A stretch of 64,000 nucleotides of DNA from Verrucomicrobiota bacterium JB022 (lineage in GTDB: Bacteria; Verrucomicrobiota; Verrucomicrobiia; Opitutales; Oceanipulchritudinaceae), in NCBI GenBank assembly GCA_030673845.1, contig JAUTCQ010000012.1:62001-126000 (forward strand). The letters are read 5' to 3'. Made by a program: the position numbers and the translations under genes. The notes beneath the pieces were generated by a model. It ran no database searches and was not told the origin of the DNA. It was given only the letters and a program-made list of their open reading frames with translations. Numbering within the stretch: position 1 is the stretch's first letter; each line of letters opens with the position of its first letter. Positions 58,836-64,000 of the stretch are shown here, piece by piece.

Positions 58836-59675
58836 ATGGATCGACTCTTCGTCATTATCGGCGCCATTGGTTATCTGGTGGCGTTCGCAATCGCATTGGG
58901 GGCCCTGCGGGTGCGGGAGCGCCCTCCCCGGGCGTGGATCATGACGGCGATCGGGGCCGGGTTTCTTTTCCAGACGATCGGCCTCCACCTGCGCGGCTTT
59001 GCCGTCGGAGCCTGCCCCATCGGCAACCCCTACGAGGTGCTGCAGTTCATCAGCTGGTCGATCATCCTCGTCTACCTGCTCGCTGGGCCTATTTTCCGGC
59101 TTTCGCTGCTGGGCAGCGTCTCCGCGACGCTCGCCGCGCTGCTTTCAGTGCTGGGGCTCATCGTCCCGGGTTGGGACCACCCGACGCCGGGCAAGCTTTT
59201 TGGCGACCCGTGGATCGAGATGCACGCTGCGCTCGCCTTGATGAGCTATGGTATTTTTGGCCTGCTCGCCGTGACCAGCGGCCTCTACCTCGCCCAGAAT
59301 TACGGGCTGAAGAGCAAGCGCTTTTCCGTCCTGCTGCGGCTCTTCCCTTCGCTCGTGGAGCTGGAGAGCGTCAACTTTCGCCTGCTGGTAATCGGGTGCG
59401 GCATGTTCTCGTGTGCCCTCGTCATCGGCTCGGTTTATTGGTTGAACAACTGGGGCGATACGTCGGTCCCCAAGCTGATCATTACAGTCGCCCTCTGGAG
59501 TGCCTACCTTGCCGTGCTCGTCTTGCGGCTGGGGCAAAAACTCGTGGGCTTTTCCCTTTCCGTGGCCTGCCTGAGCCTGTTCGTGGGCGCGTTGCTCGCG
59601 CTCTGGCCGGTAGAGGCCGACCGGGTGCAATCGCATCCCCAGGCGGTCCCCGCAGACGTTGCACACCATGGCTGA
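58836..59675 (+). CDS. CcsA/HemX-like cytochrome c assembly membrane protein
   Basis: This is a 279-residue integral membrane protein with eight predicted hydrophobic segments. The CcsA/ResC family pattern is visible in NPYEVLQFISW near residue 62, then HAALALMSYGIFGLLAV near 132 with the membrane His, and a WLNNWGDTSVPKL end region. It is shorter than full CcsA and lacks the WGxxWxWD haem motif in canonical form, so it may be a HemX/YpjD-like partner that affects glutamyl-tRNA reductase or haem handling. Its stop overlaps hemA by eight bases, which supports the HemX link. Confidence 0.86.
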   Translation: MDRLFVIIGAIGYLVAFAIALGALRVRERPPRAWIMTAIGAGFLFQTIGLHLRGFAVGACPIGNPYEVLQFISWSIILVYLLAGPIFRLSLLGSVSATLAALLSVLGLIVPGWDHPTPGKLFGDPWIEMHAALALMSYGIFGLLAVTSGLYLAQNYGLKSKRFSVLLRLFPSLVELESVNFRLLVIGCGMFSCALVIGSVYWLNNWGDTSVPKLIITVALWSAYLAVLVLRLGQKLVGFSLSVACLSLFVGALLALWPVEADRVQSHPQAVPADVAHHG

Positions 59676-60699
59676 GCGAGCTTCACTGATCCTCGTCGGT
59701 TGTAACCACCAGCGGGCGTCGATGGAAGTCCGCGAACGCATGGCGCTGTCCGGTAACGACGTGCAGGAGATGTATCGCGTGCTGGCCCAGCTCGAAGCGC
59801 TGGACGAGGTGGTGATCCTCAATACCTGCAACCGGGTGGAAGTCTACGCCGCCAGCAAAGACACCGATGCGCCGGAACAGGTGGTCAACGCACTCTGCCA
59901 CATCCGCCAGTTCCCGGAAGCGGAGTTTCGCGACCTCGCCTACATCAAGCACGGGCCGGAAGCGATCGAGCACCTCTACGCGGTCGCCTCGGGGCTGGAT
60001 TCGCAAATGGTGGGCGAGACGGAGATCCTGGGGCAGGTCAAGGACGCCTACCAGCGCGCCAGCAAGGCCAAATATGTGCGGGGGCGCTTGCACAAGGTGT
60101 TCCAGAAGAGCTTTCAGGCGGCCAAGTGGGCGCGATCCAATACGGGGATCAGCCAAGGGCAGGTGAGCCTCGGCAACGTGGCGGTAGATCTGGCGCAACG
60201 CATTTTCGGTCAGCTCTCTCACGCGAGCGTGCTGGTCGTCGGGTCCGGCGAAGTCGGGCAGGACGTGGCAAAGGCGTTCAAGGGGCGCGGGGTGAAAAAC
60301 ATCCTCGTCACCAGTCGCACCGCCGGGCGCGCAGACAAGCTGGCGGTCGAGATCGAGGCCAAGGTCGTGCCGTTCGACACCTGGCAGAGCGAACTGCCCC
60401 ATCACGATATCGTGCTCTGCGCCACCTCGGCCCCCACGGCCATCGTCTCGGCTGAGATCATCAAGGAGGCGGTGCACCAACGCCCGGCACGCCCGCTGTT
60501 CCTGATCGACCTGGCCATGCCGCGCGACATCGAGGCGGGAGCCGCAGAAGTAGGCAACACCTACCTTTACAACCTCGACGACCTGGCCCAAATCGCGAAC
60601 GAAAACCTTGCCGCCCGACAGGCCGAAGTCGAGCGTGCCCGCGAAGGCCTCAAACAGCGGGCCGACTTCCTCTGGCAGCATTTGCAACCCAGCCGCTAA
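59668..60699 (+). CDS. hemA: Glutamyl-tRNA reductase HemA
   Basis: HemA reduces glutamyl-tRNA(Glu) to glutamate-1-semialdehyde, the first committed step of C5-type tetrapyrrole synthesis. The 343-residue protein starts at ATG 59668, inside the end of the ccsA-like gene. The catalytic Cys is in LNTCNRVEVYAA near residue 51. VGETEILGQVKDAY near 115 and the NADPH loop VLVVGSGEVGQDVAKAF near 189 match the family. The C-terminal dimer helix is short; the protein is about 75 residues shorter than E. coli HemA, which is common. No hemC or hemB follows; a repeat element starts right after its stop. Confidence 0.95.
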   Translation: MAERASLILVGCNHQRASMEVRERMALSGNDVQEMYRVLAQLEALDEVVILNTCNRVEVYAASKDTDAPEQVVNALCHIRQFPEAEFRDLAYIKHGPEAIEHLYAVASGLDSQMVGETEILGQVKDAYQRASKAKYVRGRLHKVFQKSFQAAKWARSNTGISQGQVSLGNVAVDLAQRIFGQLSHASVLVVGSGEVGQDVAKAFKGRGVKNILVTSRTAGRADKLAVEIEAKVVPFDTWQSELPHHDIVLCATSAPTAIVSAEIIKEAVHQRPARPLFLIDLAMPRDIEAGAAEVGNTYLYNLDDLAQIANENLAARQAEVERAREGLKQRADFLWQHLQPSR

Positions 60700-60720
60700 G
60701 TTTGCTTCGTTACCTTCTGT
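60700..60720. repeat. 21-base unit of an intergenic repeat after hemA
   Basis: The 21 bases right after the hemA stop codon begin GTTTGCTTCG and end CCTTCTGT. They are an exact inverted copy of 61720-61740, part of a larger palindrome beyond aguB, so aguB lies between inverted copies. Unit position, right after a stop codon, fits an intergenic REP-like element. Confidence 0.85.
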
Positions 60721-60778
60721 TCGGTTTCCAAGCCTTATTTTCGCGTGCAAAACTCCGGAAAACGCATTTAGTGCAGCC

Positions 60779-61654
60779 ATGACCCGTTCCCCCGCCCAAG
60801 TCAAAGTGGCCCTGCCCCAGTATGTCGTGGTGGCAGACAAGCAGGCCAATCTGGCCACGGCCGAGCGCCTCGTCCGCCAGGCAGCCGGCCAAGGCGCGCA
60901 GATCATCTGCCTGCAGGAGCTGTTCGACACCCTCTACTTTTGCATCGATCAGGACCCGGAGCATTTCGAGCTGGCAGACAGCGTGCCGAGCCCGGCGATT
61001 ACGCACCTGCAGGCGGTTGCGAAGGAGCTGGAAGTCGTGCTGGTGGTGCCGTTTTTCGAGCGCCGCGCCCCGGGGCTCTACCACAACAGCGCCGCCATTA
61101 TCGACGCCGACGGCGCGCTGCTCGGGCTCTACCGCAAGATGCACATCCCGCAGGATCCGGGCTTTGAGGAGAAGTTTTACTTCACCCCCGGCGACCTCGG
61201 ATTCAAGGCGTGGGACACCCGTTACGGTCGCATCGGCGTGCTGATCTGCTGGGACCAATGGTATCCGGAGGGGGCCCGACTAACGGCTCTCGACGGTGCG
61301 CAGATCCTTTTTTACCCGACCGCAATCGGCTGGCTGCCGGAAGAAAAGGCGGCTTTGGGCGAGGCCCAGCACAATGCCTGGCAGACCGTCCAACGTGGCC
61401 ACGCAGTTGCCAACGGCTGTTATGTCGCCGCCCCCAACCGTATCGGAACCGAGGGCAAGACGGAGTTTTGGGGCCGCTCGTTTATCGCCAACCCTTACGG
61501 TCAAGTCGTGGCCGAAGGCGGGCTGGACGAGGAGATCGTGATGGCCACGGTCGACTTCGCCGAACTGGAAAACACCCGCCGCTGGTGGCCCTTTTTCCGC
61601 GACCGTCGCATCGACGCCTACGGCGATATCACCGAGCGCTGGCGGCAGGCTTAG
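60779..61654 (+). CDS. aguB: N-carbamoylputrescine amidase AguB
   Basis: AguB hydrolyses N-carbamoylputrescine to putrescine, CO2 and ammonia. The 291-residue carbon-nitrogen hydrolase has the nitrilase triad: Glu in ICLQELFDTLYF near residue 45, Lys in YRKMHIPQD near 121, and Cys in VLICWDQWYPEGAR near 158. PGLYHNSAAII and the HAVANGCYVAAPNRIG region follow the AguB pattern. It starts at ATG 60779 and is followed by aguA, so together they convert agmatine to putrescine. About 200 bases between the two genes hold a large palindrome, so they may not share one transcript. Confidence 0.95.
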   Translation: MTRSPAQVKVALPQYVVVADKQANLATAERLVRQAAGQGAQIICLQELFDTLYFCIDQDPEHFELADSVPSPAITHLQAVAKELEVVLVVPFFERRAPGLYHNSAAIIDADGALLGLYRKMHIPQDPGFEEKFYFTPGDLGFKAWDTRYGRIGVLICWDQWYPEGARLTALDGAQILFYPTAIGWLPEEKAALGEAQHNAWQTVQRGHAVANGCYVAAPNRIGTEGKTEFWGRSFIANPYGQVVAEGGLDEEIVMATVDFAELENTRRWWPFFRDRRIDAYGDITERWRQA

Positions 61655-61673
61655 GATGTAATTTTGTAATTTG

Positions 61674-61829
61674 GAACAGGAGTTAAAAGGAGTGAAAAAG
61701 AGTTCCAATCAAAGCCGTCACAGAAGGTAACGAAGCAAACGAAGAACCGTTTTTAAAGGTTACTTAGCTTTTCGTTTCCTTCGTTCTCTTCTGTTTTAAA
61801 ACTCCTTTTTACTCCTTTAACTCCTGTTC
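61674..61829. repeat. Large nested palindrome between aguB and aguA
   Basis: The outer arms 61674-61704 and 61800-61829 are near-perfect inverted repeats (GAACAGGAGTTAAA at left; TTTAACTCCTGTTC at right). Inside, AACGAAGCAAACGAA (61729-61743) pairs with TTCGTTTCCTTCGTT (61771-61785) with one mismatch, and ACAGAAG (61720) pairs with CTTCTGT (61788-61794). The centre has AACC/GGTT. The whole 156-base unit can fold on itself. The inner left arm is the inverted copy of 60700-60720. It has no coding capacity; it looks like an intergenic repetitive extragenic palindrome or MITE-like unit. Confidence 0.88.
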
Positions 61830-61855
61830 AATTCCCCTCTTCCTTTTCTATATTT

Positions 61856-62899
61856 ATGGCTTCTCCTGCTGAACTTGGATACGTCATGCCGCCCGAATGG
61901 GCGCCCCAACAAGCGGTCTGGTTTTCATGGCCGTGGCACGCTCATACCTGGCCGGACAGCAAGGACAAGGCCGTAGCCGAATACGCGGCATTTCTCGCCA
62001 CGACGACCCGCTATGCGCCGATCAAGATCGTGTGCGAGCGCAAGCAGCAGAAGGCCGCCGAAAAAGCTCTCGCCGCCGCACAGGCCGATCTGGATCGCGT
62101 GGAATGGGTCGACCTGCCTTCCAATGACGCCTGGATCCGCGACTTCGGCCCCACCTTCGTCAAGCACCGCGAGACGGGCAAGCTGGCGATGGTCGACTGG
62201 CAATACAACGCCTGGGGCGGCAAGTTCGCACCGTGGGATGAGGACAGTGCATTGGTCGAGCGACTGGAAGAGCGCTTGGAGATTCCGCGCTTTGCGGCAC
62301 CTTTTATCTGCGAAGGCGGCGCGCTGGAGGTCAATGGCCAAGGCCTGTGCCTCACGACCGAGAGCGTGTTGCTCAACCACAACCGCAATCGCGAACTGAC
62401 CGAGCCGACGATCACGCGCTACCTCAAGGAGTTCCTCGGCATGCGCGAAGTGGCGTGGCTGGAGCGTGGGCAGGCGACCGACGACACCGATGGGCACATC
62501 GACACACTGGCCCGCTTTTTCAAGGACGACGGCATCGTCGCCATCGTGACCGAAGACAGCCGTCACCACGACTACGCCGCCCTGCAGGGCAACCGGGAGC
62601 GTCTGGAGGGCTTGCGCACGGCTTCGGGTGGTCGTTTCGATCTCGCCTGGCTTCCCCTGCCCGAGCCGATCCATGTGCCGGGCGCGCGCGAAGAGTTCCT
62701 GCCCGCCAGCTACGCGAATTTCCTGATCGTAAATGACGGGGTGCTCGTGCCGGTGTATGGCCAGCCCAAGCTCGACGACCGCGCCTGCGGCATCCTGCAA
62801 GAGCTGTTCCCCCGGCACGAAGTAGTAGGCGTCTCCTGCCGCGAACTCGTCTGGGAAGGCGGCGCGGCGCACTGCCTGAGCCAGCAGATGCCGCGCTGA
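61856..62899 (+). CDS. aguA: Agmatine deiminase AguA
   Basis: AguA converts agmatine to N-carbamoylputrescine and ammonia. The 347-residue protein is a guanidino-group-modifying enzyme with a five-bladed fold. Catalytic residues are seen: Asp/Glu in DAWIRDFGPTFV near residue 94, His in DTDGHIDTLARFF near 217, and Cys in GGAAHCLSQQMPR at the C-terminus (near 341). AVWFSWPWHAHTWPD near the start is typical. It is 26 bases after a repeat unit and has no clear Shine-Dalgarno. Together with aguB it provides putrescine. Confidence 0.95.
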   Translation: MASPAELGYVMPPEWAPQQAVWFSWPWHAHTWPDSKDKAVAEYAAFLATTTRYAPIKIVCERKQQKAAEKALAAAQADLDRVEWVDLPSNDAWIRDFGPTFVKHRETGKLAMVDWQYNAWGGKFAPWDEDSALVERLEERLEIPRFAAPFICEGGALEVNGQGLCLTTESVLLNHNRNRELTEPTITRYLKEFLGMREVAWLERGQATDDTDGHIDTLARFFKDDGIVAIVTEDSRHHDYAALQGNRERLEGLRTASGGRFDLAWLPLPEPIHVPGAREEFLPASYANFLIVNDGVLVPVYGQPKLDDRACGILQELFPRHEVVGVSCRELVWEGGAAHCLSQQMPR

Positions 62900-62902
62900 T
62901 TC

Positions 62903-63763
62903 TTAGCGGAAGAGCAGCACGGGGATCTGGCAGGTGCGCACGAGGGCCGTCGTCGTGCTGCCGACAAAGAACTCCCGCAGGCGCGATTGCCCGTAGGCTC
63001 CCATCACGAGCAGTTGCGCCTTTTCGCGGGCCACGACCTCAGGGATCACCTTTTCGGGGTCGCCCGGCGGCTGGTCGACCACCACGTTGCGGCCCGCCTT
63101 CTTCAGGCTCAGCTCTGCCGCTTCCAGCTCCAGCTTGGCCGCATTGGATTGGGTGCCAACGCAGAGCAGGCGAATCGAGAGACCTTCGAAGAGGGGCGAC
63201 GTAGCCGCATATTCTGCCGCCTTTCGCGCACTGGGGCCGCCGTCAAAGGCGATCACCGCGCGCTCGATGGGCTGGAAAGCCCGGGCCGCGACCAGCACCG
63301 GGTGCTTGCTCGTGCGGATGACGCGCTCGAGGTTGCTACCGAGGTGGCCCTTGTCGAAATTGGCATGCTCACCGCGCTTGCCGATCACGATCAGCTCATG
63401 CGTGGCCGCAAATTCGCTGACGGCGTCGGCCAGACGACCGTGTCGCGCTTCGGTCTGGATCTGCACGCCAGCGATTCCTGCCGCTTCGAGGCGCGCCTGC
63501 GCCGCCTGCAGGATCGCATCGGCCCGAGACTGCGCCACGCGCGATTTGGCCCGCTCCAGCGCCACGAGCTCGTCAGACAGCTTCTGCTGGGCATCCACGC
63601 CGATAATGCCGCTAAAGTCGGCCTGGTAGGCGGCCACGGGCACGGGCTCAAGCATGTGCAGCACGCGCACGTCGCCCTGCAGGCGCTTGGCCGCCCAGGC
63701 GGCGTGGTCGCAAATGCTTTCGGCGTAAACGGAGCCGTCGGTGCAAACGAGGAGCTTGTTCAT
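62903..63763 (-). CDS. Tandem-domain universal stress protein
   Basis: This is a 286-residue cytosolic protein with two USP domains (about 1-150 and 155-286). The ATP-binding loops are present: ELIVIGKRGEHANFDKGHLGSNLERV in the first (GX2GX9GS pattern) and LLVMGAYGQSRLREFFVGSTTTALV in the second, each followed by a PVLV/PVLL strand. Tandem USPs bind ATP and respond to starvation or oxidative stress. Convergent with aguA, whose stop is four bases away. It lies just downstream of the SulP-type gene in the same direction, and such pairs are common, so joint expression is likely. Confidence 0.93.
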   Translation of the reverse strand: MNKLLVCTDGSVYAESICDHAAWAAKRLQGDVRVLHMLEPVPVAAYQADFSGIIGVDAQQKLSDELVALERAKSRVAQSRADAILQAAQARLEAAGIAGVQIQTEARHGRLADAVSEFAATHELIVIGKRGEHANFDKGHLGSNLERVIRTSKHPVLVAARAFQPIERAVIAFDGGPSARKAAEYAATSPLFEGLSIRLLCVGTQSNAAKLELEAAELSLKKAGRNVVVDQPPGDPEKVIPEVVAREKAQLLVMGAYGQSRLREFFVGSTTTALVRTCQIPVLLFR

Positions 63764-63781
63764 GATCTGGCGGGGCTGGGG

Positions 63782-64000
63782 TTAGTGGGCGCCGGCATTG
63801 TCCATCGCGCCGGGCTTGTCGTGCTGGGCTAGGCGGAGCACGAGGGTCTTGCTGGCTTCGTTGAGGCCAACCAGTTCCACTTCAGCACCTTCGCGGCGGA
63901 ACTTCAAGACAACGCGGTCGAGCGCTGTGATCGAGGTCAAGTCCCACAGGTGGGCACGAGAGACGTCGATGCGGATGTTGGGCACCACTTCGGCAAAGTC
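63782..64000 (-). CDS. C-terminal STAS domain of a SulP-family anion transporter (5' end outside window)
   Basis: The frame enters from the window edge and ends at 63782, giving 73 residues. The visible stretch RAHLWDLTSITALDRVVLKFRREGAEVELVGLNEAS, read in pieces, is the STAS domain that ends SulP sulfate/bicarbonate transporters; DLTSITALD is the usual core. The transmembrane part must lie beyond base 64000. It stops 18 bases before the universal stress protein gene. A free-standing STAS protein is less likely because SulP and USP genes often adjoin. Substrate cannot be told. Confidence 0.82.
   Translation of the reverse strand, partial: DFAEVVPNIRIDVSRAHLWDLTSITALDRVVLKFRREGAEVELVGLNEASKTLVLRLAQHDKPGAMDNAGAH

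Follow-up and report, generated by a model that had tools for sequence, protein, structure and literature searches.

A nested palindrome in an aguB–aguA spacer, probably a gene-less copy of a dispersed element carrying a GxxExxY gene

The nested palindrome that occupies most of the aguB–aguA spacer in the window (the whole stretch of 64 000 nt that was analysed) is best explained, with a probability of about 0.62, as a nested, MITE-like derivative, without the gene, of a dispersed GxxExxY element. Bracketing of GxxExxY genes by inverted arms is seen across at least 11 phyla (by record title), and the same arms also surround palindromes that hold no open reading frame. The features of the region are collated in Table 1.

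Table 1. Features of the hemA–aguB–aguA region (window positions, nt)
Feature	Position	Strand	Remarks
hemA, glutamyl-tRNA reductase	59659–60699	+	PF05201, profile match; bystander gene
Lone inner-type arm	60700–60724	−	21 nt identical to 61720–61740; immediately follows the stop codon of hemA; that spacer shows no partner arm
aguB, carbon-nitrogen hydrolase	60779–61654	+	PF00795, profile match; bystander gene
Whole nested palindrome, ORF-less composite element	61674–61829		156 nt; inverted-repeat, genome-copy and folding analyses
Outer left arm GAACAGGAGTTAAAAGGAGTGAAAAAGAGTT	61674–61704	+	Three cores, period about 10 nt; dialect as in both arms of the GxxExxY element G000 C15:131626–132083
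Inner left arm ACAGAAGGTAACGAAGCAAACGAAG	61720–61744	+	Three cores, period 9 nt; resembles arms of GxxExxY genes L092 (G001) and L146 (G047)
Inner right arm	61768–61794	−	Partner of 61720–61744
Outer right arm AACTCCTTTTTACTCCTTTAACTCCTGTTC	61800–61829	−	Partner of 61674–61704
aguA	61856–62899	+	PF04371; bystander gene; ATG 26 nt downstream of palindrome

The palindrome is exactly 156 nt long, and its outer arms pair at 61674–61687/61816–61829 (100 %) and 61678–61693/61801–61816 (94 %). The outer arms read GAACAGGAGTT–AAAAGGAGT–GAAAAAGAGTT and the inner arms ACAGAAGGT–AACGAAGCA–AACGAAG, in each case three similar cores about 9–10 nt apart. A 21-nt sequence, GTTTGCTTCGTTACCTTCTGT, is present as inverted copies at 60700–60720 and 61720–61740 that are 100 % complementary; by our own arithmetic, the chance of an exact inverted match of this length in 1.1 kb is about 1e-7. 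An earlier note on this DNA had placed the second copy beyond aguB within a nested palindrome of 156 bases, and the coordinates were found exactly as claimed there. The note had also described aguB as bracketed by the pair. The two copies are real, but the idea that they carry aguB between them found no support and was rejected, since the copy beside hemA stands alone and both gene order and the orientation of aguB are conserved in the sister species G001, in whose hemA–aguB spacer no recognisable arm copy was seen. A perfect tandem pair of TGTAATTT was also observed at 61657–61672, between the aguB stop codon and the palindrome.

The suggestion of a genome-wide and probably mobile intergenic family held up. 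In the genome itself (G000), 109 BLAST pieces of the palindrome family were found in about 40 places; the grouping of the pieces into 40 places was made by eye from printed flanks, each read singly, one gene-carrying copy accounts for two of the places, one at each of its ends, and inner-type arms alone are present in a few. The pattern GAACAGGAGTTAAAAGGAGT (≤3 mismatches) matched 36 times on the forward and 29 times on the reverse strand, the matches overlapping partly in register and therefore outnumbering the sites, against 0 + 0 for the reversed-pattern control. The count of copies, which the note had named as a check, came to about 40 places where a single one would have spoken against a family. 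Counts of the outer pattern were 36+29 in G000, 5+3 in G001 (same genus) and 0 in G002 (same family), with reversed controls of 0 except for one match in G001; those of the inner pattern were 26+24, 12+10 and 0, with all reversed controls at 0. The arms are lineage-specific.

Both outer ends were well defined in 28 of the 40 places. Around these copies, all combinations of neighbouring gene orientations occurred (++ 5, −− 10, +− 8 and −+ 5, according to a simple longest-ORF rule), and no target-site duplication was found among them, the mean direct repeat being 1.79 nt versus 1.83 nt after shuffling. Mean arm identity over 10 nested copies, compared as a guide to relative age, was 0.83 for the outer and 0.82 for the inner arms; the outer arms may have enclosed inner ones that were there before, or the inner arms may have entered older outer ones. 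The flank segments of 28/28 copies were located in G001, and 25 of the spacers proved syntenic; four of these 25 measure 20–57 nt in G001 versus 147–207 nt in G000, that is, presence and absence at orthologous sites. The contents of the G001 spacers were read by eye, and in this way the aguB–aguA spacer was seen to contain the composite in decayed form, so that the insertion would predate the species split. Half of the 16 inner-dialect sites of G001 lie within spacers orthologous to the 28 tested outer-dialect elements (a ninth is the gyrB–gyrA site described below), with 0.1–0.2 expected by chance (estimate from about 3,400 spacers). This may reflect a change of dialect at old sites or an attraction of new palindromes to those already in place.

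The connection to a gene was provided by a Pfam search of the genome. A GxxExxY gene (PF13366, PDDEXK_3; locus L087) at C15:131678–132025 lies exactly between outer-dialect arms at C15:131626 and C15:132083, and the genes on either side of the element were taken by eye, from the translated flanks, as gyrB and gyrA. The same spacer of G001 contains a different GxxExxY gene (L092, 48 % identical) with inner-dialect arms around it. Therefore, the two arm types that are nested in the window each also bound a GxxExxY gene, at one orthologous site in two sister species. GxxExxY proteins were found in 27 of the 55 related genomes searched and, beyond these, in many phyla. In one of them, G047, four of the 11 GxxExxY matches listed have in-frame stop codons (for example L094/L147), which suggests decaying copies.

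For each gene, the two 300-nt flanks were compared, and their best inverted match was taken as the bracketing score. Mismatched flanks served as the control, which is conservative because dialects are common to several loci. For the order-level relatives, 29 of the 30 loci fetched per family were used, the remainder having short flanks; 25/29 GxxExxY loci exceeded the 95th and 16/29 the 99th percentile, a level that was exceeded by 0/290 mock genes placed in the same loci. In named genomes, which were scanned with the single peptide pattern LGPGLLESxY, 80 of at least 571 confirmed loci were kept, a sample that favours one protein clade; 75 of these could be scored (the other five had short flanks), and 56/75 exceeded the 95th percentile versus 2/600 mock genes, leaving 19/75 below the threshold. 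Among the loci listed, 57/77 GxxExxY genes reached the score versus 0/57 other ORFs of 90–260 amino acids from the same loci. The cross-phylum comparison was made with 56 loci of score ≥30, whose phyla were read from record titles; the taxonomy of loci from metagenome-assembled genomes may include misbinned contigs. Successive cores of the CRCNRA type were spaced by 8, 9 and 10 nt in 61, 84 and 43 cases, respectively; exactly three cores were counted in 82 of 176 arms, and none by the strict pattern in 37.

Arm type follows protein type. For this comparison the last base of the core served as the dialect label, which was assigned to 74 of 94 loci (L156 by hand; L087 was left unlabelled and is absent from the tree). 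The labels changed 4 times on the protein tree versus 15.4 times in shuffles, with 0/200 shuffles as low, in a quick tree of few columns and many open forks on which near relatives inflate the test. A Mantel test of dialect against protein gave Spearman coefficients of 0.17–0.25 (0/500 permutations as high); the correlation fades below 50 % protein identity (62/500 and 17/500 permutations as high). One group of loci (L179/L181, L235 and L241), assigned by record title to Verrucomicrobiota, Pseudomonadota and Thermodesulfobacteriota, combines 69–76 % identical proteins and nearly identical arms with outer flanks at background similarity, and here gene and arms are common to several phyla as a unit. 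Low arm scores were obtained for other cross-phylum pairs with 69–75 % identical proteins (L227 with L233 and L239; L184/L185; L185/L208), in some of which the scored repeat is not a core-type arm.

The GxxExxY protein is best explained as a PD-(D/E)XK nuclease-fold protein with a RecB/Cas4-like active-site pattern and is a predicted nuclease. L087 scored 141.7 bits (cut-off 35) and 139.3 bits (cut-off 22) with the TIGR04256 and PF13366 profiles. Over 26 diverse aligned rows, residues G29, E32, D72, K84, Q96, Y100, N113, F114 and R125 are invariant, and the E of ExK is replaced by D in four rows and by A in one (L098). The succession of D, ExK and QxxxY is what we take to be the nuclease motif of the RecB/Cas4 type, and both this pattern and the corresponding fold were recovered, from the alignment and from an AlphaFold2 model (pLDDT 94), respectively. 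The best match of the model among solved structures was SSO0001, presumably a Cas4 protein (Foldseek E 1.2e-3; VIA Z 9.3, rmsd 3.8 over 99 residues); the other VIA Z values were mostly middling and indicate a common fold only. By sequence, no solved structure was matched significantly (best E 0.32). In a library of defence profiles, L087 matched Cas4 weakly (E 2.4e-4) and L092 had no match. The orthologous genes of G054 and G056 show dN 0.093 and dS 1.79 over 138 codons, and therefore purifying selection acts on the protein in this pair. A phage or plasmid vehicle was considered and rejected: GxxExxY was present in 0 of 50,697 phage records (one protein query), in 8 of 72,556 plasmid records (7 with the other query) and in one confirmed viral contig found with a narrow peptide pattern.

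A mechanism can be outlined for such an element. The full form consists of a left arm, in which there are typically some three 7-nt cores 8–10 nt apart, the GxxExxY gene and an inverted right arm. Most probably, the nuclease would recognise the DNA of those arms that belong to its own dialect, perhaps extruded as a cruciform, and cut there; repair of the break would then copy, delete, invert, convert or exchange arm-bounded segments, and the spacers that receive them would often already hold such a palindrome. Internal deletion would leave palindromes without an ORF, and repeated rounds with different dialects could produce the nesting seen in the window, where arms of the AACAGGAG type enclose those of the AACAGAAG type. 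On this view, the nuclease would be the driver of the movement.

The main competing explanation, which we consider unlikely yet the most serious, is that GxxExxY is a mere frequent passenger and that the arms are moved, cassette-like, by another factor or by a host process such as homologous recombination, break repair or template switching at hairpins. In the related genus g29, the pattern AACCACAGAGGACACAGAG (≤2 mismatches) matched 9, 12, 37 and 51 times in genomes G036, G054, G055 and G056, with controls at 0. Twenty arm-bounded stretches of this genus comprise palindromes of 78–80 bp, longer inserts, nested palindromes of another dialect and small ORFs; thus, nesting is not unique to the window. 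Four ORFs from arm-bounded stretches and L270 gave no Pfam match. That other small ORFs, other palindromes or nothing at all lie within the same arms counts for the passenger explanation and against a nuclease-driven element, as GxxExxY could then itself be cargo. At one orthologous site with one arm type, L311, L312 and L315 have 80 bp, 78 bp and 469 bp between the arms, the last with an ORF of 132 amino acids. In the orthologous pair L304/L317 (G055 and G056), 61 nt between the outer and inner arms are reverse-complemented and found on the opposite side of the inner palindrome (score 36 reversed, 12 forward). The inner palindrome itself has the same orientation in both (score 118 forward, 75 reversed). 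Such a difference could arise if inverted arms recombined at two levels. It also fits a passenger that the inner dialect is abundant in the window's own genome (about 50 arm matches), with no cognate gene seen among its six GxxExxY matches. Set against this explanation are the tracking of protein type by arm dialect and the bracketing of most of the GxxExxY loci tested, which is beyond expectation for arbitrary cargo.

Derivatives of the kind that the GxxExxY element would leave behind were found in the same genus. L269, a palindrome without an ORF, retains an arm and, after it, the ATGGA with which the gene begins; it can be compared with the GxxExxY element L267 of G056. The spacer between genes named by eye as gatA and gatB holds a GxxExxY element in G054 and G056 and something else in G036; in G055 (L265), a palindrome of contiguous heptamers stands in place of the element. 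By eye, L306, L308, L310 and L322 have an inverted GCGCTG–NCGCT motif just inside the arms, which suggests a subfamily.

An RNA-level element, in which a long mRNA hairpin would control aguA, end transcription or serve as a substrate of RNase III, is improbable. The folding check proposed in the earlier note did give a strong predicted hairpin: RNA of 61660–61860 folds at −65.5 kcal/mol (z −7.7, with 0/200 shuffles as good), and the start codon of aguA follows at a distance of 26 nt. Against this stand the weak fold of the decayed copy in the orthologous aguA spacer of the sister species (z −2.4 vs −8.2 for the copy of this genome) and the distribution of the copies over all four gene orientations, with 5/28 in divergent position by the simple ORF rule. 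Termination, likewise proposed as a check, was not indicated, as terminator-like sites were not above chance (2 found vs 2.5 expected); no promoter-like site was found, and the control of aguA that the note had considered was not borne out. Mismatches between arms yielded 90 G–U wobbles on the sense strand vs 115 (p 0.09), opposite to the expectation for selection on RNA; because the mismatches lack a sense-strand wobble preference, DNA rather than RNA is favoured as the recognised form. No described RNA family was recognised, the sole Rfam match in window positions 59000–64000 having E 0.87 and 18 bits against a gathering score of 100.

The note had tentatively suggested a REP-associated transposase, but a REP/REPIN family moved by such a RAYT (Y1 tyrosine transposase) can be dismissed as very improbable: intergenic palindromes in about 40 places and three Y1_Tnp genes in the genome would suit it, yet GTAG was found within 12 nt of an end in 0 of the 28 elements with defined ends, no arms lie within 1.5 kb of any of the three genes (best outer match 6 mismatches of 20, best inner 11 of 26), and G036 and G054, the two genomes of g29 that this search covers, gave no Y1_Tnp match at E 0.001 although elements of this class are present. 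The Y1_Tnp loci have inverted repeats of other kinds instead: GC-rich ones at two of the three genes in this genome (none above threshold at the third), and 18 of 25 loci here and in relatives with scores above 28.

The interpretation as a GxxExxY element has consequences beyond this spacer. GxxExxY (PF13366/TIGR04256) has no functional name other than that of the nuclease superfamily, and a tie to a variable DNA signal would be a first functional hypothesis for it; a class of intergenic palindromes would be explained, and the proteins and arms would be natural nuclease–target pairs whose specificity may differ between clades. As a tentative extension, which we regard as possible rather than probable, GxxExxY and its period-coded arms might constitute a new superfamily of mobile elements in bacteria, with a minimal Cas4/RecB-like nuclease as driver, each clade reading its own dialect and new dialects repeatedly replacing or enclosing older ones at the same spacers; S23 genes with their arms of contiguous heptamers would be a parallel case and would link the 23S rRNA intervening sequences to it. 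If this were true, a large share of the unexplained periodic intergenic palindromes would be accounted for.

GxxExxY is nearly unmentioned in the literature searched. It is named in a virus genome table and, in a classification study of reverse transcriptases, was assigned as a domain by the pipeline where another tool called cas4. A search for GxxExxY/PF13366, intergenic palindromes of Verrucomicrobia and combinations with mobile elements or MITEs, by titles and the beginnings of abstracts (subscription papers and preprints lying outside its scope), returned no description of a GxxExxY gene between repeat arms, an arrangement that is present in many bacteria.

The elements were compared with four known systems. 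Like MITEs, they are short, intergenic and present in many copies, with terminal inverted repeats common to a gene-carrying form in the same genome (the C15 gene; L269 compared with L267); an internal-deletion derivative (L269) and cargo that is present or absent at one site (L311/L312/L315) add to the likeness. They differ in that no target-site duplication was found here, so that they are likened to MITEs and not filed as such, in that the gene of the full form encodes a protein of the PD-(D/E)XK nuclease family and not a known transposase, and in that each arm is built from short cores that vary in sequence between clades. REP/REPIN–RAYT systems and TIRtrons, the latter being RAYT-like genes flanked by terminal inverted repeats (PMC3733652), share with them intergenic palindromes, a small gene within inverted repeats that vary with the gene, and repeats beyond the gene locus; the elements described here have no Y1/HUH protein and no GTAG tag, their arms are period-coded, and some of the genomes that contain them gave no Y1_Tnp match.

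The 23S rRNA intervening sequences carry an ORF for the S23 four-helix bundle between inverted repeats (PMC4990558). Common to both are a small ORF in inverted repeats, decay of the ORF, and a mobility that has been proposed and left unexplained; the protein is a different one, and the present elements are intergenic and show no sign of selection for RNA pairing. The genome of the window has no PF05635 match. At S23/23S-IVP genes of relatives (PF05635, L107–L136), inverted repeats of contiguous heptamer-like units (GGCTGTA, GGTTCTG and GCTTAAA) were observed, with 23/29 loci above the 95th and 15/29 above the 99th percentile of mismatched flanks, the latter being exceeded by 3/290 mock genes. 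Finally, the intergenic heptanucleotide repeats TAACTGA of Beggiatoaceae (PMC4679880) resemble the arms described here in being short intergenic units of many copies, often near start codons; they are direct tandem heptamers, whereas the arms are inverted pairs of spaced cores that bracket a gene.
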